From Lichina pygmaea (Eukaryota > Ascomycota > Lichinomycetes > Lichinales > Lichinaceae): a stretch of 64,000 bases of DNA. Location: the NCBI GenBank assembly GCA_963422465.1, contig OY730174.1:3188914-3252913 (forward strand), in the 5' to 3' direction. The translations under genes and the position numbers were made by a program. Positions within the stretch are counted from its first letter, which is position 1; every line of letters starts with the position of its first letter. The notes beneath the pieces are model-generated. The model made no database searches, was not told the DNA's origin, and saw only the letters and a program-made list of their open reading frames with translations. Below, in pieces: positions 18,591 through 59,563 of this stretch.

Positions 18591-18990
18591 ATGTCTCCAA
18601 AGTCATGTGCGACTGTTAGCTGAACTCAGCTTGCTGCTCAAATCTACGATCAGGGTTTTGTTTCGCGTACGCCCTGCAACTTTTGTGCTCTGTGGTTGTC
18701 TGTGCTTCCAGATGCCGGGGGAAGATGATAAGTTGAAATGTGCTGCGTGCACTCAGCGTGGGAGGTCTTGTGTCTCTGTGTTCTGGGAATCTCTGAACAT
18801 ATCCTGGGACAACCTTTGTGAGGATGTGGCTGCTGAAGAGGCAACACGCGACACACTCTTCGAACAACTTGCCGTGGTGCAAGTTTGTCTGTCTTGGAAG
18901 TGAAAGGTGTTGGAAGGCGCCAAGGTCTGTGCAAGGCAGAAGCTTCAGTGTCTGGTGAAAAAGATAGAGTCGGATGGTGAGGATTTGACT
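18591..18990 (+). other. E0 antisense Zn2Cys6-like stretch (type A version, broken)
   Basis: On the strand opposite the element, starting 44 bp inside the 3' LTR. It resembles the E1 copy (26871-26557), with the words PGEDDKLKCAACTQRGRSC and VFWESLN, then a heptad-like helix and a tail rich in Lys and Glu. It is broken and shown only as a relative of the open E1 copy. Confidence 0.7.
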
Positions 18991-21495
18991 TAATCAGTCA
19001 TTGACACATCCCTCCTGCAGGCTGAGCTGTTCAGTCCTGCTCCTGCCAAAACTATCACAGAAGAAGCTGGCAGTTCGCGAGGTTCTTGAGTGGTTTCCAG
19101 GTATTCTCCGAGTCTGGGTATCCTTTCCACTTGACAAGGTATTGCTGATCTTTCCTAGCCAGGATCTGTTCAACTTCGAACTCTTGTTCTTCTTCAGGTT
19201 GATAATGAAATGTTTCCTGCAAGGGTGTGCTCTGGTCGGCTGGTTCAATCGTTGATATATGAAAGTTTGGATAGACTCTGGCATCTCTTGGTAGTTGTAT
19301 CTTGACGTTGACTGGTCCTGTTTTCTCTTCGACTGAAAATAGTCTGACCTTGATATTGTCAAGTTTCTTTGTCTTTGGCTTTTTTGTTTTCCAATTTTTT
19401 GTGAGAAGTTAGACTTTATCCCCCTTCTTTAGCTGAGGTACTATTTTTGATTTTTTGTCTATTTAACACTGTATTTTTTCTGAGGTCTCTTGAAGGTAGT
19501 GCCTCATCATCGTGTGTTTGTTGTAGGAGCTTGTCATGTTGGAGTGCTTTCTCTGTGTTTGGTGAAGCTCTGCTTGGTATTCTGATGTTTGCATGTCATC
19601 CAAAATTGGCAAAGAATAGTGATTCCTTTATTGAGTCTGATCTGTGCTGGTTGATTGCCAGCTGTGCCACTGGTAATAACTGTACCCAATTACTGTGGGT
19701 CTGGTTGATGTAATACCACAAATAAGTCTCCAGGACTTGGTTTGCTTACTCTGTCTAGCTGTCAGTTCATGGGTGATAGGCTGTAGACATTTTGGGTTTT
19801 GTTCCCATGACTACACTGATTGTCTTCCAGTAGTTGGACATGAAGAGTTTATCTCTGTCTGTAATAATCATGATTAGAACTCTGTGGTCTCTGACCAATC
19901 TGTCCAGTAAGAGGTGTCCCAACTGTTCTGCTGTGTGGGTCTCCTTGAATAGTACCACTATCAGATATTTTGTGAATCTGTCTGCTATCACTATAATCAA
20001 GTTGTAGGTGATTCCTGTGACTGGGTCTTTGGACTTGGGTAGCTTTGTGATGAAGTCTATTGACACATCTTCCCACAGGCCTCTTGGTATTGTGTTCGGG
20101 TGTCCTTCTCCATATGGCTTGTGTCTTCCATGTTTGTTTTTTTTTGGTACAGTAGACATTTGCTGATGTAGCTTGTGACATGTTGTCAGAGGTTGATGAC
20201 ATTGTTCCCTACCTGTTGGATAAGGTCTGTGGTCTTGGTGATTCCTGGGTGACTATGTGCTGGGTTGTTGTGGTAGTTCCTTATTAATTCTTCAGTGTCT
20301 TCTGCTGTGAGCTTGTTGATCTGTGGTCAAGGCACCAGGTTTTCTTGCTGGTCCTGCTGTAAGATTGTTCCTTGGCGTTCATCATCTTCCATGTGGTCTT
20401 TTCGTCAGCTTAGTGTGTCTGCTCTCCTGTTATCTTGTCCGGGGGTGTACAAGATCTTGAACTTGTGTTGCCCTAGGAGTTCAGCCCATCTGACTTGCTG
20501 TCTGTTCAGCTTCTTGGTTGTTGTGAACATTGTCAGATTCTTGTGGTCTGTGAGAACAGTGAGTTCAGAACTGCTTTCCGCGTACACTCTCCAGTGTTTG
20601 AGTGTGTTGACAACTGCCAGTAGCTCTTTGTTGTGGATATCATAGTTTTGTTCTGCTTGTGTCATTTTTTGTGAGTAGTAGGCAACTGGGTGCCACTTGT
20701 TGTCTGCCTGTTGGCATAAACATACTTCCACTACCTGATCTGAAGTGTCTGTCTTGATTTGTGTCGGTTGGCCTATCTTGAAGTTGAGAAGAAGTGGTTC
20801 CTTGGCACAAGTGTTCTTGAGCTGCTGGAATACTTTTTGTTGTCTCTCCATCCACCAGTACTCCACATTCTTCTTCATGAGTTCTGTCAGTGGTATTGCT
20901 GTCTGTGAGTAGTTCTTGATAAACTGTCAGTTAAAGTTGGTAAATCCTAGGAAGACTTGTACTTCCTTAACTGATATCAGTATTAGCCATTGTTGAATCA
21001 CTTTGATTTTCTCAGAGTTGATCTTGATCCCTTCAATTCCTATGATATATCTGAGGAATTCAACTTCTGGTTTGTTGAACTTGCATTTCTTCAGGTTGAG
21101 CTTGAGCCCTGCTTTTTGTAGACATCATAGAACATCCTTCACATGTTTGGTATGTTCCTGTTATGTGTTCAAGTAGACAAGAATGTTGTCTAAGTAGGTG
21201 ATAGCTGTTTAGTCCAGGTGTACTCTGATGATGTTATTGATCAAGGCTTGACATATTGCTGGTGTGTTCATGAGTCTGAATAGTATAACCAGATACTTGT
21301 AGTGTTTGTATCAGGTTCTGAAGGCTGTTTTCCATTCTTCTCCTTCTTTCATATGTATCAGGTTGTATACTCCTTTCAAGTCTAGCTTGGTAAAGATTGT
21401 AGCTTGGCTGATCCTGTCTCACAATTTGTTTGCATTTGGCAACAGATATCAGTTTTTGATAGTAATATTGTTGAGTTTCCTGTAATCCACACAAA

Positions 21496-22155
21496 TGTTA
21501 CAACCCCTGGGATGGGAGCCACTTATTTATAGGCAATCAGGCCGCAGGCCAGGCAAGAGGATACCATGGAAGTCAAGTGACTGTCAAGACATACAGGCAG
21601 CTTGACGCAGTATGCATGAAGTATCAAGACAATCTCACCAGTCTTGATGCAGGATGCAGGAAGTATCAAGACAGCCTCACCAGTCTTGACGTAGTGTGCA
21701 TGAAGTATCAAGACAATCTCACCAGTCTTGATGCAGAATGTAGGAAGCATCAAGACAGCCTCACCAGTCTTGACGCAGTGTGCATAAAGCATCAAGACAA
21801 TCTCACCAGTCTTGACGCAGAGTGCATAACATGGTGGGACTGTCAAGACAATCTCACCTGTCTTGATGTCAAGACTGTCAAGACAATCTTGATCATCTTG
21901 ACAGGCCAGCACTATATAGTCTGGTGATAGTTCCCTTATGGAATAATCATCTTCAACTTATGTTGTGATCCAGACAACTAGATCTACTTCAATACAATCC
22001 TTTGTACAGAGCCATTGATCAGGTGTCACCACCACCATGTTCCACCAAACCTCTTCGCACTCCTTGACACTCCTCTCCTGCGAGAACCAACCCACCTTCC
22101 ACATCTCACCCTTAATCCTATACTCAGTGAGGACAGCACAGTACAGACTGCAACA
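21496..22155 (+). repeat. E2 5' LTR, type B (660 bp) with five 42-bp U3 repeats
   Basis: It begins TGTTACAACCCCTGGG and ends ACTGCAACA. Five 42-bp units fill 21601-21810, each starting CTTGA(C/T)G and carrying ATCAAGACA and CTCACCAGT. The TATATA-type box follows, then the block shared with type A. Confidence 0.93.
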
Positions 22156-22976: not shown

Positions 22977-23470
22977 TGTTACGACCCAGGAGGAACATGG
23001 TCTTTATATACTCACAGAAAGCAGCAGACAGGATACTGGACAGAAGTACCAGACAGCGTGACACGGGAACCGGTCACGTGACCGGTGAGACAAACCAGAG
23101 GGTGCTCACCACAGCATGCATATGCACGAACAAGTGAGCAAAGTGAGCAGAGCTCACCCAGCTCGCCGCAGTGTGCATGAAAAGTGAGCAAAGTGAGCAG
23201 AGCTCACTCTGCTCACGAACTGGGCACTATATAGTCCGGCGATAGTTCCCCTATGGAACGATCGTCTTCAACTCATGTTGTGATCCAGACAACTAGATCT
23301 ACTTCAATACAATCCTTTTGTACGAAGCCGTTGATCAGGTGTCACCACCACCACGTTCCACCAAACCTCTTCGCACTCCTTGACACTCCTCTCCTGCAAG
23401 AACCAACCCGCCTTCCACCTCTCGCCCTAATCCTATACTCGGATAGGACAGTACAGTACAGACTGCAACA
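22977..23470 (+). repeat. E1 5' LTR, type A (494 bp)
   Basis: TGTTACGACC...CTGCAACA. The U3 has a perfect 18-bp palindrome, ACCGGTCACGTGACCGGT (23069-23086), two copies of the GAGCAAAGTGAGCAGAGC word, and TATATA at 23228-23233. Confidence 0.94.
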
Positions 23471-25026: not shown

Positions 25027-26428
25027 ATGACCCCTAGCAACACAAAGCACCTGCGATTGCCTGTGTCACTACATGCCAACACGCCAGTACGGACATACGC
25101 ACTTGTTGACTCTGGAGCCAGTGGAAACTACATCTCGAGACAACTTTACAATACCCTCAGCACTGGAAGGAGACACAAGCAGCAGCCCTATCAGCTCGCG
25201 ATGGCAAATAGACAGACAGAGCTAGTCTGCCATGAGACGCAGCCAATAGAAATAGTTACCAGACACCATGCTGAAAGGATCCACCTTGATATTGTCGAGT
25301 TGGCCACTCAGGATATCTACTTGGGGATGCCTTGGCTAAAGAAGCACAACCCAGTTGTTAACTGGAAGACAGGAGTACTCATGTTTAGGAACTGCACTAA
25401 CAACACAGCTCGGACCTGTTACCAGCCGCAGAAGGCGTGGACAGATGAGGGAAGGAGTCCTCAGTGGAACCTCACTGACAGAAAGGACGACTCTCAAAAG
25501 AAGAGGTCTGCCTTGACAGGCACACTCCGGAACCAGGTGGCCAAACAGTCAGAGATGAAGAGAGAGGAAGTTGTTAACCCTCTGGAGATCCCTGAAGAGT
25601 ACTGACCTGGGTATGATAACCTCTTTCAGGAAGAGACAACGACAGCAGCGTTGCCTAAGCACCAATCTTGGGATCATGAGATCAAGTTGCAACCAGGGAC
25701 GGAGCCAGGATTTGGACCAATTTACCAGTTATCAGAGAAAGAGCTCCAAGTACTTCGCGAGTACCTGGAGGAAAACCTGAAAAAGGGTTTCATTCAAGAA
25801 TCTCAATCGCCAGCAGGATACCCGATACTATTTGCACCAAAGAAAGACAGAAGTCTTCGACTTTGTGTGGACTACAGGAAACTCAACAACATTACTATCA
25901 AGAACTGATATCTGTTGCCAAATACGAACAAATTGCGAGACAGGATCAGTCAAGCTACAACCTTTACCAAGCTGGACTTGAAAGGAGCATACAACCTGAT
26001 ACACATGAAAAAAGGAGAAGAATGGAAGACAGCCTTCAGAACCTGATACGGACACTACAAGTATCTGGTTATGCTATTCAGACTCACAAATGCACCAGCA
26101 ACATGTCAAGCATTGATCAACAACATCATCAGAGCACACCTGGACCAAACAGCTATCGCCTACCTGGACAACATTCTTGTCTACTCGAACACGCAACAAG
26201 AACATACCAAACATGTGAAGGATGTTCTACAATGCCTACAAGAGGCAGGGCTCAAGCTCAACCTGAAGAGGAACAAGAGTTTGAGGTTGAACAGATTCTG
26301 GCTAGAAAAAGTCAGCAATACCTTGTCAAGTGGAAAGGATACCCAGACTCAGAAAATACCTGGGAACCACTCAAGAACCTCGCGAACTGCCAGCTTCTTC
26401 TGCGACAGTTTTGGCAGGAGCAGGACTG
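25027..26428 (+). pseudogene. E1 protease, reverse transcriptase and chromodomain remains (fossil)
   Basis: An aspartic protease core ([12 protein letters not shown]), the linker typical of this group ([18 protein letters not shown]), reverse transcriptase words ([28 protein letters not shown]) and a terminal chromodomain ([19 protein letters not shown]). It is broken in several places and no repaired protein is implied. Confidence 0.85.
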
Positions 26429-26556
26429 AACAGCTTGGCCTGCAGGAGGGACATGTCAATGACTGATCAAGTCAAATCCTCACCATCCGACTCCATCTCT
26501 TTCACCAAGCACTGAAGCTTCTACCTCACACGGACCTCAGCGCCCTCCAACACCTT

Positions 26557-26871
26557 TCACTTCCGAGACAGACGAGCCTGCACTGTGGCAAGTTGTTTGA
26601 AGAGTGCATCGCGTGTTGCCTTGTCAGCGGCAACATCCTCACGGAGGTTATCCCGGGACATGTTCAAAGATTCCCAGGACACAGAGACACAAGACCTTCC
26701 ACGCCGAGTGCATGCAGCACATTTCAACTTATCGTCTTCTCCTGGCATCTGGAAGCACGGACAACCACGGAGAACACAAAAGTCGCAGGGTGTACGTGAA
26801 ACAAAACCCTGATCGCAGATTTGAGCAGCCAGCTGAGTTCGGCTAACAGTCGCACGTGACTTTGGAGGCAT
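26557..26871 (-). CDS. Antisense Zn(II)2Cys6-like protein of E1 (type A), open 104 codons
   Basis: A 104-aa frame on the strand opposite E1. It starts with an ATG at 26871, only 44 bp inside the 3' LTR. Cysteines 29, 32, 39, 51, 54 and 61 give C-x2-C-x6-C-x11-C-x2-C-x6-C, which lies within the Zn(II)2Cys6 (Gal4-type) consensus. Basic residues (TRRGRS) sit in the second half. Residues 63-104 are charged and leucine-spaced (NLREDVAADKATRDALFKQL), as in the linker and coiled coil after such clusters. Relatives with the same spacing occur in E3 and E5 and in more broken form in E0 and E2. The position suggests antisense transcription from the 3' LTR. A DNA- or RNA-binding role is inference; it could also bind the element's own nucleic acid. 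Confidence 0.72.
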   Translation of the reverse strand: MPPKSRATVSRTQLAAQICDQGFVSRTPCDFCVLRGCPCFQMPGEDDKLKCAACTRRGRSCVSVSWESLNMSRDNLREDVAADKATRDALFKQLATVQARLSRK

Positions 26872-26914
26872 GACCAGATTTCATCAAGATGATGAAAGAT
26901 GGAGAGGGGGATAG

Positions 26915-27394
26915 TGTTACAACCCAGGAGGAACACAGTCTTTATATACTCACAGAAAGCAGCAGACAGGATACTGGACAGAAGTACCAGACAGCGTGAC
27001 ACGGGAACCGGTCACGTGACCGGCAAGACAAACCAGAGGGTGCTCGCCGCAGTATGCATATGCACGAACAAGTGAGCAAAGTGAGCAGAGCTCACTTATC
27101 TCACCAAGTGAGCAAAGTGAGCAGAGCTCACTCTGCTCACGAACTGGGCACTATATAGTCCGGCAATAGTTCCCCTATGGAACGATCATCTTCAACTCAT
27201 GTTGTGATCCAGACAACTAGATCTACTTCAATACAATCCTTTTGTACAAAGCCGTTGATCAGGTGTCACCACCACCACGTTCCACCAAACCCCTTCGCAC
27301 TCCTTGACACTCCTCTCCTGCGAGAACCAACCTGCCTTCCACCTCTCGCCCTAATCCTATACTCGGATAGGACGGTACGGTACGGACCGCAACA
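26915..27394 (+). repeat. E1 3' LTR, type A (480 bp)
   Basis: TGTTACAACCCAGGAGG...GGACCGCAACA, preceded by the purine tract GGAGAGGGGGATAG and followed by the duplication GACTG. Confidence 0.93.
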
Positions 27395-29287: not shown

Positions 29288-32200
29288 CTAGATGTTGGAG
29301 TGTGAATAGTGAAGTTTGAAAGCCAGATTAAATTGGTTTAGTCTTTTCAAAGACATAAACCAGTACAGAAACTTCTGTAGAAGCTCTGGGTTTGAAATAA
29401 TAGTAGTGAAATCTTGGGGGTTAAAGAGAGCATGTTGTCTTTGACTTGAGTAGAGAGAGCATGAAGAGGTGATATGCTTTACTGTCTCTTCTGCTTGACC
29501 ACACATGCATAGGGGGGTAGGAAAGTCAGGGACTCCAGCTCTGAAAAGAAAACTTGCTAGACCAATTCTCCCAGTTCTGGTTTGCAGTAGTAGACTTGCC
29601 TCAGCTTTCTGTAGCTCTTTGTAGAGCTTTAGGTTGTTGTAGTGAGGTTTTTGGCAAAACACCTGCCATCCAGCATAGCCTTTTCTTTTCTTCTCCTCCC
29701 ATTGGTTTTCCCACTCTTTAGTAAAGAGTATTTGTAGTTCTTTCTTTGAACTAGCCTGGTTAGTAGTTATTTGACTTAACCAAGTGAACTTCCAATTAGG
29801 AGAGATAGTTGAGCATTTCTTTAAAGGTTTCCTCAGTGAAGAAGCATAGGAAGAAATAGTAGAAAAGGTACTGTCAAGAAAGTCTTTCAGAGAGGAGGTT
29901 TGGATAGAAGATAGAAAACAAGCTGTGCGAAATTTAAAATAGAGATCTAGAGGTAAAAGAAAAAGCTCACTCTCTAATAGAAAAGAAGGAGTGGCTTTGA
30001 AAGCACCCCCAATAAGTCTCAGACATTTGTTTTGGAATATGATAAGAGAGGAAATATTAGAGGATTTTCTGAGTGGGTTGAACCAAATTCCCACTGCATA
30101 GCTCAGTACAGATCTGAGTATTGCAGTGTACACAAGGCGTGCTGTGAGAACTGGAAAGCCCCAGGTGGAGTAAGAGGTTCTAGAAAGAGAAGATAGTGCT
30201 TTTTGTGCTTTTTGAAGAATAATTCTCTGGTGTTTGTGCCAGTGGAGTTTGGCATCCAGGTAAACTCCCAATACTCACACTTCTTCTTTTGGTTTTAGAA
30301 TCACATTCCCAAGTCTAAGCTTGAGCTGCAGATTGTCTGATCTTCTTCTGGAAAAATGAAGTATTTCATATTTCTCAGGAGAGAAGACCATTCCATGTCT
30401 TGCAGCCCAAGATAGACATTTAAGATGTGTATTCTTCAACTTCAGAAGGTTGCTTTTAAGAGAGTGTCCAAATGCAAGCAGATTTGTATCATCTGCAAAT
30501 CCCAGAGCAGAAACACCAGTAGTAGGAGAATGTACAGTCTCATGAAGTTCAGAAATATAGAATAGAAAAAGAATAGGAGACAAAGGGGAACCTTGGGGAA
30601 CTCCACAGTGAATAGGAATAGAAGAGGACTCAGAGTCATCAAAAACTAGGGTGGTGGTACGTCTGGTACAGAAAGAGAAGATCCAAGAAGTTAGCCAGAG
30701 AGGGATTCCTTTTCTCTCCAGAATCTTTTGAAGAATCTCTGGAAGAACTCTGTCATATGCTCCTGAGATGTCCAGAGAAAGTAGAGATGCAACCATGCCT
30801 TCTTTCCAGACTTTTTCCACTTGGGAAGTTAGAAGGAAAAGTGCTGATTCAGTTGATCTGCCTTTCCTGAACCCCATCTGGATTTCTGGCAAGAGTTTAG
30901 TCTCTTCTGCTACCTTGCTTAGTCTGGCTGCTGTAATAGCTTCCATCAGCTTGCCAGTTGTGTTTAGCAGAGCTATAGGGCGCCAGGCTTTAGCTTGGTT
31001 ATAGATTCCCTTGCCAGGTTTTCTTAGACAGACTGTTTTTGCATTCTTGAATTTCTCTGGAAAGTATTCCAGTCTCCAGCATGTTGATGTGAGAACAGCT
31101 ATAGCTTGGCAGAACTTGGGACCCAGAGCTTTCAGAAATCCATTTGGCAGCTTGTCTTTTCCTCCTGCTGTAAAAGGTTTCTTCTTGTTCAGAATTTGCT
31201 CCACTTCTTCAGTGGTAACCTCCTGAGAAAGCTGGATATCTGGGGTACTCTGGTGACTTTCTGTACTTGGTTCTGGAACATGTGCTTCTGGAAAGAATTG
31301 AGCTGAGAAAGATTTTGTCTTCTCCTCAAAGCTTTTGGCTAGTCCTTCTTGAGTCTCCAGATCAGGGACCAGAGGAAGATCAGAGGTCTTGTTAGCTTTT
31401 GATTTTCCCCACTTTGCAAGCTTCCAGAATTTTGAGGAACTGGCTAGCTCATGAACTTGTTTTCTGAAGGTGTTCTGTTTGCCTTCTCTGACAGCTTTCT
31501 TCTTGAGCTTAGTTGCTTCTTCTAGCTCTTCTTGGCTTGCCTGTCCTCTGAGCACTTGTCTTCTTATTCTTCTTTCCTGCTTAACTTTAGTTTGGATCTC
31601 TTGGTTCCACCAGGGGACTGAGTGGCTAGATTGCTTCTGGAGTTCTGTGCATCTGTCTGCTATTTCTTGGAGAAAGTGGTTAAGATATTCCAAGTACTCA
31701 TCCACTTCATGTTTATCTTGAAAGTGGAAGGGCAGCTGCAAATTATTACACTCTTGTTTTGCCAGGTTTGTGTCCAGTGTTTTCCAGTTCCTTTCTGGCT
31801 TCCAGGTTTTTCTTGGTGAGTCCAGGTCCAGGCTAGTTAGCACAGGTCTGTGGTCAGACCCATGAAAGAACTGCAAAGCAATTTTAGAAAAGATTAGAGA
31901 GTTAGAAAGAGAAGAAGATATAAAGGAAAGATCAATAGGTGAACAGGGTTTGTGGGAAAGAGATCTAGCTCTTGTGGGTGTAAAAGGTGCAATAGCTAAC
32001 TCCAGATTTGAGTTTTTCATTAGAGTTTGGAACTTGTGTGCAGTGTCAGAATATAGTCTTCTTTTCTTTGACCAGTCAGGGTGGTGAAGATTTGAGTCTG
32101 TAAGAAGAATATGCTGCCCTTTTGCTTGTAAAGCATTTTGGAGTAGACAGAGAAGAGCTTCTGATGCTTGTAGGTAGTTCTCTTGACTTGAGGGAGTGAA

Positions 32201-35885: not shown

Positions 35886-37429
35886 TCAAGATCTTGTATA
35901 CCCCCAGACAAGATAACAGGAGAGCAGACGCACTAAGCTGATGAAAAGACCACATGGAAGATGATGAAAACCAAGGAACAATCTTATAGCAGGACCAGCA
36001 AGAAAACCTGGTACCTTGACCACAGATCAACAAGCTCACAGCAGAAGACACTGAAGAATTAATAAGGAACTACCACGACAACCCAGCACATGGTCACCCA
36101 GGAATCTCTAAGACCACAGACCTTATCCAACAGGCAGGGAACAATGTCATCAACCTCTGACAACATGTCACAAGCTACATCAGCAAATGTCTACTATGCC
36201 AAAAAAACAAACATGGAAGACACAAGCCATATGGAGAAGGACACCCGAACACAATACCAAGAGGCCTGTGGGAAGATGTGTCAATAGACTTCATCACAAA
36301 GCTACCCAAGTCCAAAGACCCAGTCACAGGAATCACCTACAATTTAATTATAGTGATAGTGGACAGATTCACAAAATATCTAATAGTGGTACTATTCAAG
36401 GAGACCCACACAGCAGAACAGTTGGGACACCTCTTACTGGACAGATTGGTCAGAGACCACAGAGTTCTAATCATAATCATTACAGACAGAGACAAACTCT
36501 TCATGTCCAACTACTGGAAGACAATCAGTGCAGCCATGGGAACAAAACCCAAAATGTCTACAGTCTATCACCTACAAACTGACAGCCAGACAGAGTGAGC
36601 AAACCAAGTCCTGGAGACTTATTTGCAGTATTACATCAACCAGACCCACAGCAATTAGGTACAATTACTACCAGTGGCACAGCTGGCAATCAACCAGCAC
36701 AGATCAGACTCAACAAAGGAATCACTATTCTTTGCCAATTTTGGACAACACGCAAACATCAGAATACCAAGCAGAGCTTCACCAAACACAGAGAAAGCAC
36801 TCCAACATGACAAGCTCCTACAACAAACACACACAATAATGAGGTATTACCTTCAAGAGACCTCAGAAAAGATGTAACACCAAATAGACAAAAAATCGAA
36901 AATGGCATCTCAGCTGAAGAAGGGGGATAAAGTCTACCTTCTCACAAAAAATTGGAAAGTCAAGAAACCAAGAACAAAGAAACTGGACTATGTCAAGGTT
37001 GGACTATTTTCAGTCAAAGAAAGAACCAGACCAGTCAACATCAGACTGCGACTACTGAGAGACACTCAGGTACACCCAAACTTTCACATCTCAATGATTG
37101 AATTAGCTGACCAGAGCACACTCTTGCAGGAAATATTTTATTACCAACCAGAGGAAGAACAGGAATTCAAGGTGAAACAGATCTTGAAGAGAAAAGGTCA
37201 GCGATACCTTGTGAAGTGGAAAAACTACCCAGACTCAGAAAATACCTGGGAACCACTCAGGAACCTTGCAAACTGCCAGCTCCTCCTGCAGCAGTTCTGG
37301 CAGAAGTAGGACTGAACAGCTTGGCCTGCAGTGTGGACATGTCAATGACTGTTGCTGACAAGTTTTCACCATCCACCTCTATTTCAGCAACAAGGCACTA
37401 GAGCTTCTTCTTTGCTCAACCCTCAGCAC

Positions 37430-37757
37430 TTTCAAGAATCTTTTGCTTTTGGGACACACAAGCCTGCAGCTTGGCAAGCTGCTTAACAAGAGCATCCTGC
37501 TTGGCCTCATCAACAGCCAAATCCTCATGAAGGTTATCTCAGGTTATGTTCAGTGACTCCCAAGGAAGTGACACACAGGACTTCCTACAACAAGTGCATT
37601 CAGCGCACTTTAACTTATCGTTGTTGTCAGACATTCAGAAGCAGGGCTTATAGCTCAAAACACAGAAGTCACACAGAGCAAGTGACACAAAGTTATGATC
37701 ACAGATCTGGGCTACCAGTTGTTTTCAGTAAGCAGAGGTATGTGATTTTGCAGACAT
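37430..37757 (-). other. E2 antisense Zn2Cys6-like stretch (type B version, broken)
   Basis: Starts with an ATG at 37757, about 45 bp inside the 3' LTR, on the strand opposite E2. It keeps the word CDFCVL and the later coiled-coil region. It is broken. Confidence 0.6.
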
Positions 37758-40331: not shown

Positions 40332-40640
40332 ATGTCTGCAAAATCACATGCCTCTGCTTACTGAAGATAACTGGCAGCCCAGATCTGTGATTATAACTTT
40401 GTGTTACTTGCTCTGTGTGACTTCTGTGTTTTGAACCACAAGCCCTGCTTCCAAATGTCTGATGACAACAATAAGTTGAAGTGTGCTGAGTGCATTTGTT
40501 GTGGGAAGTCCTGTGTGTCACTTTCTTGGGAGTCACTGAACATGACCCGAGATAACCTTCACAAGGATTTGGCTGTTGACAAGGCTAAGCAGGATGCTCT
40601 TGTTGAGCAGCTTGCTAAGCTGCAGGCTTGTGTGTCCTGA
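40332..40640 (+). other. E3 antisense Zn2Cys6-like stretch (type B version)
   Basis: On the strand opposite E3, with an ATG at 40332 about 45 bp from the LTR. It reads CDFCVLNHKPCFQM, then NNKLKCAECICCGKSC, so the six cysteines keep C-x2-C-x6-C-x11-C-x2-C-x6-C although many other residues differ from E1. A heptad-like helix follows (NLHKDLAVDKAKQDALVEQL). It is broken near the start. Confidence 0.68.
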
Positions 40641-43600
40641 AAGTGGAAGGTTCTTGAAGGTGCTAAGAGTCAAGCAAAGAAGAAGCTCCAGTGCCTTGTT
40701 GCTGAAATAGAGGTGGATGGTGAAGACTTGTCAGCGATAGTCATTGATGTGTCTGTGCTGCAGGCCAAGCTGTTCAGTCCTGCTCCTGCCAGAACTACTG
40801 CAGAAGGAGCTGGCAGTTCACAAGGTTCTTGAGTGGTTCCCAGGTATTTTCCGAGTCTGGGTAGTTTTTCCACTTGACAAGGTATCGCTGACCTTTTTTC
40901 TTCAAGATCTGTTTGACCTTGAATTCCTGTTCTTCCTCTGGTTGGTAATAGAATATTTCCTGCAAGGGTGTGCTCTGGTTGGCTAATTTGATCATTGAGA
41001 TGTGAAAGTTTGGGTGTACCCAAGCGTCTCTCAGTAGTCGCAGTCTGATGTTGACTAGTCCAGTTCTTTCTTTGATTGAAAATAGTCTGACCTTGACATA
41101 GTCCAGTTTCTTTGTTCTTGGTTTCTTGACTTTCCAATTTTTTGTGAGTAGGTAGACTTTATCCCCCTTCTTTAGCTGAGATACCATTTTCAATCTCTTG
41201 TCTATTTGGTGTTACATCTTTTCTGAGGTCTTGTGAAGGTAATGCCTTATCATTGTGTATGTTTGTCGTAGGAGCTTGTCATGTTGGAGTGCTTTCTCTG
41301 TGTTTGGTGAAGCTCTGCTTGGTATTCTGATGTTTGCATGTCATCCAAAATTGGCAAAGAATAGTGATTCCTTTGTTGAGTCTGATCTGTGCTGGTTGAT
41401 TGCCAGCTGTGCCACTGGTAATAACTATACCCAATTGCTGTGGGTCTGGTTGATGTAATACTGTAAGTAAGTCTCCAGGACTTGGTTTGCTTGTTCTGTC
41501 TGGCTGTCAGTTCGTGGGTGATAAGCTGTAGATATTTTGGGTTTTGTTCCCATGGCTGCACTGATTGTCTTCCAGTAGTTGGATGTGAAGAGTTTGTCTC
41601 TGTCTGTAATGATTGTGATCAGAACTCTGTGGTCTCTGACTAATCTGTCCAGTAAGAGGTGTCCCAACTGTTCTACTGTGTGGGTCTCCTTGAATAGTAC
41701 TACTATTAGATATTTTGTGAATCTGTCCACTATCACCATGATCAAGTTGTAGGTGATTCCTGTGACTGGGTCTTTGGACTTAGGTAACTTTGTGATGAAG
41801 TCTATTGACATATCTTCCCACAGGCCTCTCAGTATTGTGTTCAGGTATCTTTCTCCATATAGCTTGTGTCTTCTGTGTTTGTTTTTCTGGCACAGTAGAT
41901 ATTTGCTGATGTAGCTTGTGACATGTTGTCAGAGGTTGATGACATTGTTCCCTGCCTGTTGGATAAGGTCTGTGGTCTTGGTGATTCCTGAGTGACTATG
42001 TGCTGGGTTATCATGGTAGTTCCTTATTAATTCTTCAGTGTCTTCTGCTGTGAGCTTGTTGATCTGTAGTCAAGGCACCAGGTTTCCTCACTGGTCCTGC
42101 TGTAAGATTGTTCCTTGGTGTTCATCATCTTCCATGTGGTCTTTTTGTCAGCTTAGTGCGTCTGCTCTCCTGTTATCTTGTCCGGGGGTGTACAAGATCT
42201 TGAACTTGTGTTGCCCTAGGAGTTCAGCCTATCTGACTTGCTGTCTGTTCAGCTTCTTGGTTGTTGTGAACATTGTCAGATTCTTGTGGTCTGTGAGAAC
42301 AGTGAGTTCAGAACTGCTTTCCGCGTACACTCTCCAGTGTTTGAGTGCGTTGACAACTGCCAGTAGCTCTTTGTTGTGGATATCATAGTTTTGTTCTGCT
42401 TGTGTCATTTTTCGTGAGTAGTAGGCAACTGGGTACCACTTGCCATCTGCCTGTTGGTATAGGTATGCTCCTACTGCCTGATCTGAAGCATCTGTCTTGA
42501 TTTGTGTCAGTTGGCCTGTCTTGAAGTTGAGGAGAACTGGTTCCTTGGCGCAAGTATCCTTGAGCTGCTGGAATACTTTTTGTTATCTCTCTATCCACTG
42601 GTACTCCATGTCCTTCTTTGTGAGTTCTGTCAGTAGTGTTGCTATCTGTGAGTAGTTCTTGATGAACTGTCAGTTGAAGTTGGCAAATCCTAGGAAGGCT
42701 TGTACTTCCTTAACTGATGTCAGTGTTGGCCATTGCTGAATCACTTTGATTTTCTCAGGGTCAATCTTGATCCCTTCAATTCCTATGATGTATCTGAGGA
42801 ATTCAACTTCCAGTTTGTTGAACTTGTATTTCTTCAGGTTGAGCTTGAGCCCTGCCTTTTGTAGACATCGTAGAACATCTTTCACATGTTTGGTATGTTC
42901 CTGTTGTGTGTTCAAGTAGACAAGAATGTTGTCCAAGTAGGCAATAGCTGTTTGGTCCAGGTGTGCTCTGATGATGCTGTTAATTAATGCTTGACATGTT
43001 GCTGGTGTGTTCATGAGTCCGAATAGTATAACCAGATACTTGTAGTGTCTGTATCAGGTTCTGAAGGCTGTTTTCCATTCTTCTCCTTCTTTCATGCATA
43101 TCAGGTTGTATGCTTCTTTCAAGTCCAGCTTGGTGAAGATTGTGGTTTGGCTGATCCTGTCTCACAATTTGTTCGCATTTGGCAACAGATATCAGTTTTT
43201 GATAGTAATGTTGTTGAGTTTCCTGTAATCCACACAAAGTTGAAGACTTCTGTCTTTCTTTAGTACAAATAGAATCAGGTATCCTGCTGGTGATTGAGAT
43301 TCTTGAATGAAACTCTTTTTCAGGTTTTCCTCCAGGTACTTGTGAAGTACTTGGAGCTCTTTCTCTGATAACTGGTAAATTGGTCTAAATTCTGGCTCCA
43401 TCCCTGGTTGCAACTTGATCTCATGATCCCAAGGTTGGTGCTTAGGCAACACTGCTGTTGTTGTCTCTTCCTGAAAGAGGTTATCATACCCAGGTCAGTA
43501 CTCTTCAGGGATCTCCAGAGAGTTAACAACTTCCTCTCTCTTCATCTCTGACTGTTTGGCCACCTGGTTCCGGGGTGTGCCTGTTGAGGTGGACCTCTTC

Positions 43601-53100: not shown

Positions 53101-55159
53101 CATCAGTTAAGGAAGTACAAGCCTTCCTAGGATTTGCCAACTTCAACTGACAGTTTATAAAGAACTACTCATAGATGGCAACACCACTGACAGAACTCAC
53201 AAAGAAGGACATGGAGTACCAGTGGACAGAGAGACAACAAAAAACATTCCAACAGCTCAAGGACACTTGCACCAAGGAACCAGTTCTTCTCAACTTCAAG
53301 ACAGGCCAACCAACATGAATCAAGACAGACACTTCAGATCAGGCAGTGGGAGCATGTCTATACCAACAGGCAGACAGTAAGTGGCACCCAGTTGCCTACT
53401 ACTCACAAAAAATAACACAAGCAGAACAAAACTATGATATCCATGACAAAGAGCTACTGGCAGTTGTCAACACACTTGAACACTGGAGAGTGTACGTGGA
53501 AAGCAGTTCCAAACTCACTATTCTCACAGACCACAAGAATCTGACAACATTCACGACAACCAAGAAGCTGAACAGACAGCAAGTCAGATGGGCTGAACTC
53601 CTAGGGCAACACAAGTTCAAGATCTTGTACACCCCTGGACGAGACAATGGGAGAGCAGACACACTAAGCTGACAAAAAGACCACATGGAAGATGATGAAC
53701 ACCAAGGAATGATCTTACAGCAGGACCAGCAAGGAAACCTGGTGCCTCAACCACAGATCAACAAGCTCACAGCAGAAGACACTGAAGAACTAATAAGGAA
53801 CTACCATGATAATCCAGTACATGGTCACCCAGGAATCTCCAAGACCACAGACCTTATCCAACAGGCAGGGAACAATGTCATTAACCTCTGACAACATGTC
53901 ACAAGCTACATCAGCAAGTGTCTACTATGCCAGAAAAACAAACATAGAAGACATAAGCTATACAGAGAAGAACATCTGAACACGATACCGAGAGGCCTGT
54001 GGGAAGATATGTCAATAGACTTCATCACAAAGTTACCCAAGTCTAAAGACCCAGTCACAGGAATCACCTATGACTTGATTATGGTGATAGTGGACAGATT
54101 CACAAAATATCTAATAGCAGTACTATTCAAGAAGACCCACACAGCAGAACAGTTGGGACACCTCTTACTGGACAGATTGGTCAGAGACCACAGAGTTCCA
54201 ATCATGATCATTACAGACAGAGACAAACTCTTCACATCCAACTACTGGAAGACAATCAGTGCAGCCATGGGAACAAAACCCAAAATGTCTACAGCCTATC
54301 ACCCATGAACTGACAGCCAGACAGAGCAAGCAAACCAAGTCCTGGAGACTTACTTACAGCATTACATCAACAAGACCCACAGCAATTGGGTATAGTTATT
54401 ACCAGTGGCACAGCTGGCAATCAACCAGCACAGATCAGACTCAACAAAGGAATCACCATTTTTTACTAATTTTGGACAACATGTGAACATCGGGATGCCA
54501 AGCAGAGCTTCACCAAACACAGAGAAAGCACTCCAACATGACAAGCTTCTACAACAAACACACATGATGATGAGGCACTACCTTCAAGAGACCTCAGAAA
54601 GAATGCAACATCAAATAGACAAGAAATCCAAAATGGCACCTCAGCTAAAGAAGGGGGATAAAGTCTACCTTCTCACAAGAAATTAGAAAACAAAGAAAGC
54701 AAGAACAAAGAAACTGGACTATGTCAAGGTCAGACCATTTTCGGTTGAAGAAAAAACCAGACCAGTCAATGTCAGACTGCGACTACTGAAAGACGCTTGG
54801 GTACACCCAAACTTTCACATCTCAATGATCAAATTAGCTGACCAGAGCACACCCTTGCAGGAAACATTTCATTACCAACCAGAGGAAGAACAGGAATTCA
54901 AGGTCAAACAGATCTTGAAAAGAAAAGGTCAGTGATACCTTGTCAAGTGGAAAAACTACCCAGACTCAGAAAATACCTGGGAACCACTCAGGAACCTCAC
55001 GAACTGCCAGCTCCTCCTGCAGCAGTTCCGGCAGAGGCAGGACTGAACAGCTCAGCCTGCAGCGCGGACATGTCAATAACTGTCACCGACAAGTCTTCAC
55101 CATCCACCTCTATTTCAGCAACAAGGCACTGGAGCTTCTTCTTTGCTCAACCCTCAGCA

Positions 55160-55488
55160 CCCTCAAGAACCTTTCGCTTTCAGGACACACAAGCCTGCAG
55201 CTCAGCAAGCTGCTCAACAAGAGCATCCCGCTTGGCCTCATCAACAGCCAAATCCTCGCAAAGGTTATCTCAAGTCATGTTCAGCGACTCCCAAGAAAGT
55301 GACACACAGGACTTCCCACAATGAGTGCATTCAGCGCACTTCAAGTTATTGTTGTTGTCAGACATTCGGAAGCAGGGCTTGTGGTTCAAAACACAGAAGT
55401 CACACAGAGCAAGTGACACAAAGTTATGATCACAGATCTGGGCTGCCAGTTGGTTTCAGTAAGCAGAGGCACATGATTTTGCAGACAT
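55160..55488 (-). other. E5 antisense Zn2Cys6-like stretch (type B version)
   Basis: On the strand opposite E5, with an ATG at 55488, about 45 bp from the 3' LTR. It contains CDFCVLNHKPCFRM and NNLKCAECTHCGKSC with the same six-cysteine spacing as E1 and E3. It is broken elsewhere. Confidence 0.66.
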
Positions 55489-55532: not shown

Positions 55533-56133
55533 TGTTACAACCCAGGGGATGGGAGCCACTCATTTATAGGCAATCAGGCCCTGGGCCAGGCAAGAGGACA
55601 CCATGGAAGTCAAGTGACCAACCAACAAGGGGTCACGTGACTGTCAAGACACACACAGGAGTCTTGACACAGCATGCATGAAGCATCAAGACAATCTCAC
55701 CAGTCTTGACGCAGGATGCATAAAGCATCAAGACAATCTCACCAGTCTTGACGCAGGATGCATGAAGCATTGAGACAACCTCACCAGTCTTGACGCAGGG
55801 TGCATAACATGGTGGGACTGTCAAGACAATCTCACCCGTCTCAATGTTGAGACTGTCGAGACAATCTTGATTGTCTCAACAGGCCAGCACTATATAGTCT
55901 GGTGATAGTTCCCTTATGGAACAATCATCTTCAACTCATGTTGTGATCCAGACAACTAGATCTACTTCAATACAATCCTTTTGTACGAAGCCATTGATCA
56001 GGTGTCACCACCACCACGTTCCACCAAACTCCTTCGCACTCCTTGACACTCCTCTCCTGCGAGAACCAACCCACCTTCCACCTCTCACCCTAATCCTATA
56101 CTCGGATAGGACAGTACAGTACAGACTGCAACA
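55533..56133 (+). repeat. E5 3' LTR, type B (601 bp)
   Basis: It starts TGTTACAACCCAGGGG after GGAGAGGAGAGTAG and ends ACTGCAACA. It is followed by the duplication ACCTG. Confidence 0.94.
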
Positions 56134-59100
56134 ACCTGGAGACAAGCACCTCTACTGTTTTCTCTTCTTTTCTTCCTCTTTACTGTTCAGAGATTGGTAG
56201 AACACTTTTTCTTATTAACAAAAACCTGAAACTCTCTTCTCTTCATCCTACTTTCTGGAGTAAAGACTTTATTTCTCTTGAAATCTACTTAGAAAACTCT
56301 TCTCCTTCTCTTTGGGTGCATAATCTTTACTTTACCCCATCAAGTCAAGAAAACTATACAGAGGTATCAGAAGCTCTCCTCTGTTTACTTCAAAATGCTT
56401 TACAAGTACAAGGACAACATATTCTTCTCACAGATTCAAACCTCCACCACCCAGACTGGTCAAAGAAAAGAAGACTGTACTCTGACACTGCAAACAAGTT
56501 CCAAGGTCTAATGAAAGATTTAAATCTGGATTTAGCTATTGCACCTTTTACTCCCACCAGAGCAAGATCTCTTTCAGAAAAACCATGTTCTGCAATTGAT
56601 CTGTCTTTTATTTCTTCTTCTCTTTCTAACTCCCTGATTTTCTCTAAAGTGGCTCTCCAGTTCTTTCATGGGTCTGACCACAGACCTATACTAACTAGCC
56701 TGGACCTGGATCCTCCAAGGAAAACCTGGAAGCCAGAAAGGAACTGGAAGACACTGGACTCAAACCTTGCAAGAGTAGAGTGTGAGAAGCTACAGCTACC
56801 TTCCCACTTTCAAGACAAAAATGAAGTGGATAAGTACTTGGAGTACCTGGACAACTTTCTCCAAGAAGTGGCAAGCAAATGTACACAGCTCCAGAAGCAA
56901 TCTGGTCACTCAGTTCCCTGGTGGAACCAAGACATCCAAAACAAGGTTAGAGAGGAAAGAAGAGTAGGAAGACAAGTTCTCAGAGGACAGGCATCCCAAG
57001 AAGACCTTGAGCAAGCAACTAAGAACAAGAAAAAAGCAGTCAGAGAGGGAAAGCAGACCACCTTCAGACAACAAGTCCATGAGCTAGCCAGTTCTTCAAA
57101 ATTCTGGAAGCTTGCAAAGTGGGGAAAAACAAAAGCCAACAGGACTCCTGATCTTCCCCTGGTCCCAGATTTGGAAACACAAGAAGGACTAGCTAAAACC
57201 TTTGAGGAGAAGACAAAAGTATTCTCAGCCCAGTTCTTCCCCAAAGCACTTGTTCCAGAACCAAGTACAGAGAGTTCCCAGAGTACTCCAGAGATCCAGC
57301 TCTCTCAGGAAGTTACTGCTGAAGAAGTAGAACAAATCCTGAACAAAAAGAAACTTTTCACAGCAGGGGGAAAAGATAAGCTGCCAAATGGATTTCTGAA
57401 AGCTCTGGGTTCCAAGTTCTGCCAAGCTATAGCTGTTCTCACATCAACATGCTGGAGACTGGAATACTTTCCAGAGAGGTTCAAGAATGCAAAGACAGTC
57501 TGTCTAAGAAAACCTGGTAAAGGATACTATAACCAAGCTAAAGCCTGGCGCCCTATAGCTTTACTAAACACAACTAGCAAGCTGATGGAAGCTATTACAG
57601 CAACCAGGCTAAGCAAGGTAGCAGAAGAAGCTAGACTTTTGCCAGAAATCCAGATGGGCTTCAGGAAAGGAAGATCAACTGAATCAGCACTCTTCCTACT
57701 AACTTCCCAAGTGGAAAAAGTCTGGAAGGAAGGCATGGTTGCATCTCTACTTTCTCTGGATATCTCAGGAGCCTATGACAGAGTTCTACCTAAGATCCTC
57801 CAACAAATCCTAGAGAGAAAAGGAATTCCTCTCTGGCTATCTTCCTGGATTCTCTCTTTCTGCACCAGTTGTTCTACCACTCTTGTGTTTGATGACTCTG
57901 AGTCTTCTGCTATTCCTATTCACTGTGGAGTTCCCCAAGGTTCCCCTTTATCTCCTATTCTATTTCTATTTTACATTTCTGAACTTCATGAAACTGTACA
58001 CTCTCCTTCCACTGGTGTTTCTGCTCTGGGATTTGCAGATGATACAAATCTGCTTGCATTTGGACACTCTCTAAAAAGCAACCTTCTGAAGTTAAAGAAC
58101 ACACACCTCAAGTGTCTATCATAGGCTGCAAGACATGGAATGGTCTTCTCTCCTGAGAAATATGAAATACTTCATTTTTCCAGAAGAAGATCAGACAATC
58201 TTCAGCTTAAGTTCAGACTGTGGAATGTGATTCTAAGACCAAAAGAAAAAGTGTGAGTATTAGGAGTGTACCTGGATGCAAAACTCCACTGGCATAAGCA
58301 CCAGAGAATTATTCTTCAAAAAGCCCAGAAAGCACTTTCCTCTCTTTCTAGAACTTCATATTCTACTTGGGGTTTCCCAGTCCTCACATCACGTCTTGTG
58401 TACACTGCAATACTCAGATCTCTACTGAGTTATGCTGTGGGGATCTGGTTCAATCCTCTAAGAAAAGCTTCTAATATCTCTTCTCTTAGCACATTCCAGA
58501 ACAAATGCCTGAGACTTATTGGAGGTGCCTTCAAAGCCACTCCATCTTTCTTATTAGAGAGTGAGCTTTTTCTTTTACCTCTAGATCTCTATTTCAAATT
58601 TCGCACAGCCTGTTTTCTCTCTTCTATTCAAACCTCCTCTCTGAAAACACTTCTGGACAATATCTTTTCCAATATCTCCCACTATGCCTCTTCTGTGAAG
58701 AAACCTTTAAAGAAATCCTCAACTATCTCCCCCTATTGGAAGTTCACTTGGTTAAACCAATTAACTACTAACCAGGCAAGTTCAAAGAAAGAACTACAGA
58801 AACTCTTTGTTAAAGAGTGGGAAAACCAATAGGAGGAGAAGAAAAGAAAAAGCTACTCTGGGTGGCAGGTGTTTTGTCAAAAGCCTCACCACAACAACCT
58901 GAAGCTCTACAAAGAGCTACAGAAAGCTGAGGCAAGTCTACTACTACAAACCAGAACTGGGAGAATTGGCCTGGCAAGTTTTCTATTCAGAGCTGGAGTT
59001 CTAGACTTTCCTACCCCTTTATGTGTCTGTGGTCAAGCAGAAGAGACAGTGAAACATATCACCTCTTCATGCTCTCTTTATTCAAGTCAAAGACAGCAAG

Positions 59101-59563
59101 CTTCTTTTAATTCTCAAGATTTCACTTCTATTATTTCAAACCCAGAGCTTCTACAGAAGTTTCTATACTGGTTCCTGTCTTTGAAAAGACTGAACCAGTT
59201 TAATCTGGCTTTCAAACTCCACTATTCACACTCTAATATCTAGAAGTTTTCTTTCTACCAGTCACTACAAGATTTTCTTTTGCTACATCCTCTAGTCACC
59301 CCCAGTCTTCAGTTTTTATTCCTCTAAAGGTTTTCTGAAGAAAATCACTCTTAGCTAGAAGATCTGCATGGCTGAAAAGCTACTATCAGTGTAAGAATCA
59401 AATAAAAATAAAAAATGTACTGACGTGGACTCAAGGAAAACATGAAGGATGAAATCACCTTTGATGGATGAGTGGTCAACATACTGGACAAGCTCATCAC
59501 ACAAGCAATTGATATCAATAACAAACTATTCAAGCGAGCGATGGAGAAATGCCACAACAGAGG

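Follow-up and report, generated by a model that had tools for sequence, protein, structure and literature searches.

A 64,000-nucleotide stretch of Lichina pygmaea DNA (contig OY730174.1, positions 3,188,914 to 3,252,913; hereafter the window) holds a nest of long terminal repeat (LTR) retrotransposons, one of which, E1, has an open reading frame (ORF) inside its 3′ end on the strand opposite gag-pol. This antisense frame is a real gene, and it is under purifying selection between two element subfamilies, A and B. We put at roughly 0.55 the probability that its products form a family of antisense regulators, in which a Zn2Cys6-like dimer would bind the U3 (unique 3′) units of its own subfamily and regulate the element.

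An antisense gene under purifying selection

An earlier note on this DNA had described a 104-codon frame opposite E1, together with a cysteine spacing of C-x2-C-x6-C-x11-C-x2-C-x6-C that recurs in elements E3 (40332) and E5 (55488) and partially in E0 and E2, and all of this was borne out. The antisense ATG of E1 lies 44 bp from the start of the 3′ LTR (26915), on its inner side. A six-frame scan of the window for the pattern C-x2-C-x6-C-x5-12-C-x2-C-x6-8-C gave exactly three occurrences, those of E1, E3 and E5, and 60 first-order Markov sequences (64 kb each) contained none. The E0 counterpart (18591) is frameshifted, and that of E2 (37757) keeps all six cysteines but has a stop among them. 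A seventh cysteine of E1, in the sequence RGCPC, is missing from 8/8 aligned open copies. Antisense protein P0002 matched the window at 26374–26871 with 91% identity (tblastn).

The sense translation of the carrier ends, by eye, in integrase-like and chromodomain-like sequence, presumably an integrase followed by a chromodomain. Taken with the polypurine tract and the TGTTACA LTR edge, it suggests that the carrier is a Ty3/gypsy chromovirus. E1 is apparently internally deleted, as sequences contiguous at 26259–26269 lie ~1.9 kb apart in E5, E3 and E0.

We searched the genome (32.5 Mb, 8 contigs) with antisense proteins. The E1 protein (subfamily A) and a subfamily B query each returned at least 150 matches in protein searches; the two counts were made separately and may share places. 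The A set comprises the 90 best-scoring of the at least 150 A matches, E1 included, and is biased to well-kept copies; the B set comprises six of the at least 150 B matches, chosen mainly for open frames, and three window copies, with the frameshifted E0 counted in neither. The longest naturally open copies share an end point at 166 codons, a length over which 7/90 A copies and three of the six fetched B copies were open, and no indels between subfamilies were seen in an alignment of eight copies. Among stops in the 90 A copies, 157/168 were of the class that arises when arginine codons lose their CpG. Of the residues common to A and B, the 11 arginines were kept in 60% of A copies on average and the 101 others in 95%. 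Both results point to decay after insertion.

The selection comparison proposed in the earlier note gave a ratio of nonsynonymous to synonymous substitution rates (dN/dS) well below 1. Between open A and B copies (7 × 3) it was 0.17 for the antisense frame (0.16 with CpG-type sites masked), 0.28–0.29 for the mirrored sense frame and 1.20–1.85 for the four other frames. A wider set of 30 A and 6 B copies, most of them decayed, gave 0.19–0.20, 0.32 and 0.96–1.64, respectively, and the maximum-likelihood omega of a codon model (10 open copies, codons 1–137) was 0.238, 0.278 and 1.26–3.23. For masked antisense codons 1–146, dN/dS was 0.12 and pN/pS 0.24 (bootstrap 0.16–0.34); across methods, antisense dN/dS between subfamilies spanned 0.09–0.24. 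The charged helix segment that follows the cysteines is also under selection. Within subfamilies the signal was weaker and resembled that of several other frames (0.47 for 300 random A pairs, 0.56 for B), as expected of dead copies, and the seven open A copies compared among themselves gave 0.32, or 0.19 when masked.

The gene lies between pol and the 3′ LTR, and in copy L014 the end of pol overlaps it from about codon 137. In the same elements, dN/dS was 0.09–0.12 for antisense codons 1–137, 0.27–0.28 for the integrase C-terminal domain and chromodomain, and 0.49–0.55 for the integrase core, a comparison tempered by dS close to saturation, by a B side of three decayed window copies and by partial misalignment of A copy L057 in pol. 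Within the overlap the pol frame was constrained (0.22–0.38) and the antisense codons were not (0.89–1.02), each on few sites, and the missing antisense constraint counts against the regulator reading. The tail motif TVIDAS was nevertheless found again in relatives.

It is scarcely credible that the frame is an artefact, that is, a chance open frame conserved through a sense product or an RNA structure. The one point in its favour is that the mirrored sense frame also has a low dN/dS (0.28); it shares its third codon positions with the antisense frame, and such a value is expected of a shadow. The mirrored frame has at least three stops in 90/90 A copies and at least two in 7/7 B copies, and so cannot be the gene. 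The earlier note had named a conserving sense-strand gene as the explanation to look for; over codons 1–146 no sense frame was open, each having at least one stop in 90/90 A and 7/7 B copies, and such a gene was rejected. A chance ORF was rejected on the low antisense dN/dS, the closed sense frames and the absence of the cysteine pattern from the Markov sequences. Furthermore, the antisense protein found database relatives (sense frames were not used as queries).

Two profile searches returned 111 and 131 of these proteins at E up to 10 (120 of the 131 are listed), with identities from 24% upwards. Alignment A4 combines L014 and L106 of this genome with 12 database proteins picked for spread and a full cluster; its 14 members are 28–72% identical to L014. 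Nine columns are invariant, the six cysteines and G58, V62 and S65. The cysteine conservation expected from the earlier note is thus clear among distant relatives, with only a slight edge in decayed A copies (retention of 0.97–0.99, against 0.95 for other conserved residues). The closest counterpart of relative P0043 in this genome is only 66% identical, and the P0043 group is therefore probably of another organism. Relative P0045 reads upstream into DRNTILPFPSHCPNDFLI ahead of its MPPK; in this genome the residues R-N-T are encoded by the LTR edge at an equal distance from the start, suggesting that P0045-type copies probably also lie at an LTR edge. The record of one relative is a Watsoniomyces obsoletus metagenome-assembled genome. 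Relative P0114 is annotated with a precomputed Pfam accession, PF27583, that is absent from the Pfam copy searched, so Pfam may already cover some of these proteins. No viral contigs were found in a search for the context of distant relatives.

Fold of the cysteine cluster

The spacing consensus of the Zn2Cys6 family PF00172 (C-x2-C-x6-C-x5-12-C-x2-C-x6-8-C) was found with all six cysteines in 14/14 relatives, which had been picked for a full cluster. Their spacing varies in the loop between Cys3 and Cys4, and Zn2Cys6 clusters likewise vary there. PF00172 was also the family touched by the most members (6/14; best E 0.049, below cut-off). In Pfam and NCBIfam scans of the alignments, which show cut-offs for the first member's rows only, no curated cut-off was reached in the rows showing one.

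Comparison of the 14-relative profile with four Zn2Cys6 domains by hhalign gave a probability of 87.8 and a score of 40 with all six cysteines aligned, and the cluster alone gave 72.6 and 29.5; the small, informally assembled reference set of four sequences lessens the weight of both values. When the reference columns were shuffled with the cysteines kept in place, a procedure that also disrupts the gap pattern of the reference, 0/100 shuffles reached 40 (best 24.7, median 13.5). A profile search of the PDB (E up to 10) matched 22 chains. The Zn2Cys6 proteins GAL4 (E 0.46) and CBF3 subunit B (E 2.2) were aligned chiefly over the cysteines; apart from these two and a DNL-type domain protein, the matches fell on the helix. 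PDB searches by single sequence or shallow profile gave no convincing match on the cluster. These similarities suggest that the cluster probably has a Zn2Cys6-like fold, one that we do not assign to PF00172.

Candidate promoter, U3 units and proposed regulation

The earlier note had suggested transcription from the 3′ LTR, and a plausible antisense promoter supports this idea. A TATA[AT]A motif was present 60–100 nt upstream of the antisense ATG in 90/90 A copies and at 79–80 nt in 9/9 B copies; the LTR edge lies 53–54 nt before the ATG in all of them (90/90 and 9/9), and the box ~25 nt outside that edge. Counted over all 99 copies, the box stands 75–80 nt ahead of the ATG; the copies are related and do not represent 99 independent cases. 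BLAST homology between A and B ends at 26925–26928 of E1, before reaching the TATA box, and both the sequence and the offset of the box differ between the subfamilies. The antisense gene is probably transcribed from this predicted promoter at the outer LTR end.

The box in 99/99 copies counted is also what would be seen if the antisense transcript mattered rather than the protein, forming double-stranded RNA with the genomic RNA and limiting the element by RNA interference, as suggested for plant relatives (PMC7264820). We consider this improbable as the whole explanation, since codon-level selection, the gapless frame and the distant protein relatives need a protein. Roles for RNA and protein can hold together.

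The U3 sequences separate the subfamilies. All 90 A copies have a U3 with at least four GTGAGC and no GTCAAGA, and the three window B copies have five to six GTCAAGA and no GTGAGC. The window LTRs with a recognisable U3 are of the same two kinds, with no hybrids (A-type at 22977, 26915, 46491 and 18547; B-type at 21496, 37802, 40287 and 59564), and their downstream halves are similar across both types within one nest of elements. At 21523–21927, within the U3 array belonging to the LTR at 21496, both strands carry repetitive ORFs, with KTGEIVL-like and SLDAxCxKYQDNLT-like repeats.

We aligned the U3 units on the motif CnCAGnnTGCATGAA, which was picked after looking at the sequences (the 90 A LTRs gave 228 units, three B LTRs 8, and two further window B LTRs 7). 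The core CnCAGnnTGCATGAA is common to A and B, and the two inverted arms around it change together, the layout being GCTC..-core-..GTGAGC in A and TCTTGA-core-..TCAAGA in B. The two arms were complementary over longer runs (mean longest match 5.4 and 6.4) than shuffled flanks were (3.4 and 3.6). CGG triplets were considered as Gal4-like sites and set aside: a palindrome with CCGG ends occurred in two A U3s and was absent from the two B U3s examined.

Identity between A and B, taken in 100–200-bp steps, is 85–98% through gag-pol to ~800 bp before the ATG, then 79–83%, and 61–70% over most of the antisense gene. Three mosaic B copies, L101, L102 and L103 (at G000 C4, C2 and C5, respectively), record recombination inside the gene. 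Their codons 1–75 are B-type and 76–105 A-like, after which L101 and L103 are A-type and L102 is B-type; the B-type cluster codons stay beside a B-type LTR edge. A B-like block was found in 0/90 A copies.

The computations establish a conserved antisense gene under selection, its TATA element and U3 units with subfamily-specific arms, and they give remote support to the Zn2Cys6-like fold; we infer transcription, zinc binding, dimerisation, DNA binding, a U3 target, and regulation of one sign or the other. Besides gag and pol, these presumed fungal Ty3/gypsy chromoviruses thus have a third gene, placed on the opposite strand where pol gives way to the 3′ LTR. The predicted product, ~134–166 residues in length, starts with a short N-terminal segment; next come the six cysteines, whose fold is probably that of a Zn2Cys6 binuclear cluster, and an extended charged helix through which the protein probably dimerises. 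The antisense TATA promoter in the LTR probably drives the gene. The dimer would most likely enter the nucleus and bind the U3 inverted repeats of its own subfamily, thereby regulating the transcription or copy number of its own element. More tentatively, protein and binding sites may travel as one 3′ module, the regulator moving beside its sites while gag-pol recombines; arms and protein would then have diverged in step, with gag-pol and R-U5 shared by recombination. Such a module would act as a self-recognition switch, by which subfamilies within one genome regulate themselves and not each other.

Several observations weigh against regulation by a sequence-specific DNA-binding dimer. The PF00172 search suggested in the earlier note missed the gathering cut-off of 21 bits (best 14.2 for P0102 and 14.1 for P0141), and of the 40 places marked by a PF00172 scan of the genome none is, by eye, a listed antisense copy. 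Other Pfam families had equal or better single-member E-values, several helix families among them, and a zf-PHD-like family reached E 0.0089 in 2/8 members of alignment A2. In the PDB, the DNL-type domain protein (E 0.63) covers the last three cysteines. In Gal4-type clusters, lysines between Cys2 and Cys3 contact DNA; the basic residues at this place are not conserved here (VLRGRP in A, VLNHKP in B, others without a conserved K or R). Heptad periodicity of the helix was not significant in the two sequences tested (p = 0.34). A stop at codon 135 is common to 79/90 A copies and one at codon 105 to 47/90, so the usual product in some branches of the family may have been 134 or 104 residues long; the shared stops fit recurrent decay as well as inheritance. 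On the DNA side, the full U3 is covered for only three of the nine B copies. Because U3 and cluster lie side by side, their types are fully linked, and, since tandem repeats homogenise themselves, concerted change of the arms is no proof of co-evolution. The arms could equally be sites for a host factor.

What the earlier note had called an accessory DNA-binding protein with a Gal4-type cluster thus stands as a selected antisense gene with conserved, correctly spaced cysteines and remote Zn2Cys6 similarity that extends beyond them; it falls short of the PF00172 cut-off and lacks the Gal4 lysines, and the heptad periodicity of its charged helix is not significant.

The missed cut-off, the missing DNA-contact lysines and the strong selection on the helix would also suit a real antisense protein whose zinc module binds protein or RNA, whether nucleocapsid-like or chromatin-tethering, and is not a sequence-specific DNA binder. 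We judge this unlikely, though deserving of serious attention, given that the cysteine part finds its closest matches, among solved structures and curated families alike, in Zn2Cys6 domains and that the subfamily-specific inverted arms of the U3 units resemble dimer sites. A recently captured host gene, riding in the element as a functionless passenger, is highly improbable. The genome offers possible sources in 34 Zn_clus and nine DUF3716 (PF12511) matches above cut-off, and P0002 touches DUF3716 weakly (13.8 bits, E 0.055, under the cut-off of 22). The identical place of the gene in 90/90 A and 9/9 B copies and its divergent relatives elsewhere argue against a passenger, which is largely refuted by the selection between subfamilies.

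Coordinates of E1, its antisense gene and the counterparts of that gene in the window
Feature	Position	Strand	Remarks
Antisense ORF of E1, 104 aa	26557..26871	-	ORF list and translation; 104 codons from ATG
Stretch homologous to the 166-codon frame of open copies	26371..26871	-	tblastn and open copies; stops interrupt E1
Six-cysteine cluster of E1, codons 29-61	26689..26787	-	Spacing and alignment of relatives
Charged helix, possibly coiled coil, codons 67-131	26479..26673	-	S-R-K-R-K-V conserved in subfamilies A and B
Polypurine tract of E1	26901..26914	+	Antisense strand pyrimidine-rich, downstream of TATA box
3′ LTR of E1	26915..27394	+	Starts TGTTACAACC directly after polypurine tract
Subfamily-specific U3 of E1 3′ LTR	26915-27148		
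R-U5-like part of E1 3′ LTR	27148-27394		Common with B elements
Antisense TATA box TATATAAAG in E1 3′ LTR	26940..26948	-	75-77 nt upstream of ATG
U3 array of inverted A-type arms (GTGAGC / GCTCAC)	27040..27140	+	
Antisense TATAAA of E5	55563-55568		80 nt upstream of ATG
Antisense ORF of E3	40332..40829	+	Subfamily B, decayed
Antisense ORF of E5	54991..55488	-	Subfamily B, decayed
Antisense ORF of E2	37260..37757	-	Subfamily B, decayed
Antisense ORF of E0	18591..19086	+	A-like, frameshifted

Elsewhere in the window, a 327-aa ORF at 29288–30271 (minus strand) resembles, by eye, the C-terminal part of a non-LTR retrotransposon; the 3.1-kb stretch around it has an inverted second copy at 56134–59250 that is 88% alike. 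For a host gene in the window, the best of eight solved-chain matches is a dimethyladenosine transferase, which we take to be yeast Dim1.

Comparison with known systems

Antisense genes at this place are already known, from Botrytis (brtn) and from plant Retand elements. Zhao et al. reportedly described brtn in 2011 from Boty-like elements of Botrytis cinerea. In later accounts, gag-pol of these Ty3/gypsy elements includes a chromodomain (PMC4227169), and brtn is listed among the additional ORFs (aORF-3R) that run antisense in the stretch from pol to the 3′ LTR (PMC7264820). The likeness is that of an extra antisense gene in a fungal chromodomain-bearing LTR element; the available portions of the brtn descriptions, with which we compared by description and not by sequence, make no mention of a zinc cluster. 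Database searches with the antisense protein gave no match named Botrytis, all but one of the listed matches carrying no name. A literature search by title and abstract opening, with most subscription journals outside its range, found no zinc-cluster protein encoded antisense in fungal LTR elements.

Antisense ORFs of plant Retand elements encode TRP28, with predicted DNA binding and tandem repeats nearby, and are presumed regulators (PMC11963269); gene23 of maize Grande and the RIRE2 ORF are further plant cases (PMC7264820). In the same sources, the function of such transposon genes beside the 3′ LTR is given as unknown (PMC7264820, PMC11963269). TRP28 differs from the protein studied here in its domain (PF04195) and in its non-chromovirus plant lineage, and the accessible description reports no subfamily-specific sites.

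Proteins of PF00172 such as Gal4 and Cep3 share the six-cysteine spacing, the variable Cys3–Cys4 loop and a helix after the cluster; the antisense family differs in scoring below the cut-off, in lacking the basic residues between Cys2 and Cys3 and in being encoded antisense in a retrotransposon. DUF3716 is a cysteine-rich fungal family under whose cut-off P0002 falls; it was touched by 1/8 members of A2 and lies outside the 25 families listed for A4. Four of its nine genome matches above cut-off have internal stops, and it is a possible distant cysteine-rich relative.

HBZ of human T-cell leukemia virus type 1 (HTLV-1) is a basic leucine zipper (bZIP) protein. Its gene too is antisense and driven from the 3′ LTR, and it encodes a nuclear regulator with a dimerising helix; being a bZIP protein without a zinc cluster from a human retrovirus, it offers an analogy only. 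Antisense genes next to the 3′ LTR thus recur in plants, fungi and retroviruses. If our reading is true, the Lichina family would show a characteristically fungal transcription-factor fold put to use by a mobile element, and its recognisable DNA-binding-like fold and defined candidate targets, in two natural versions (A and B), make a direct yes/no test of self-regulation possible.
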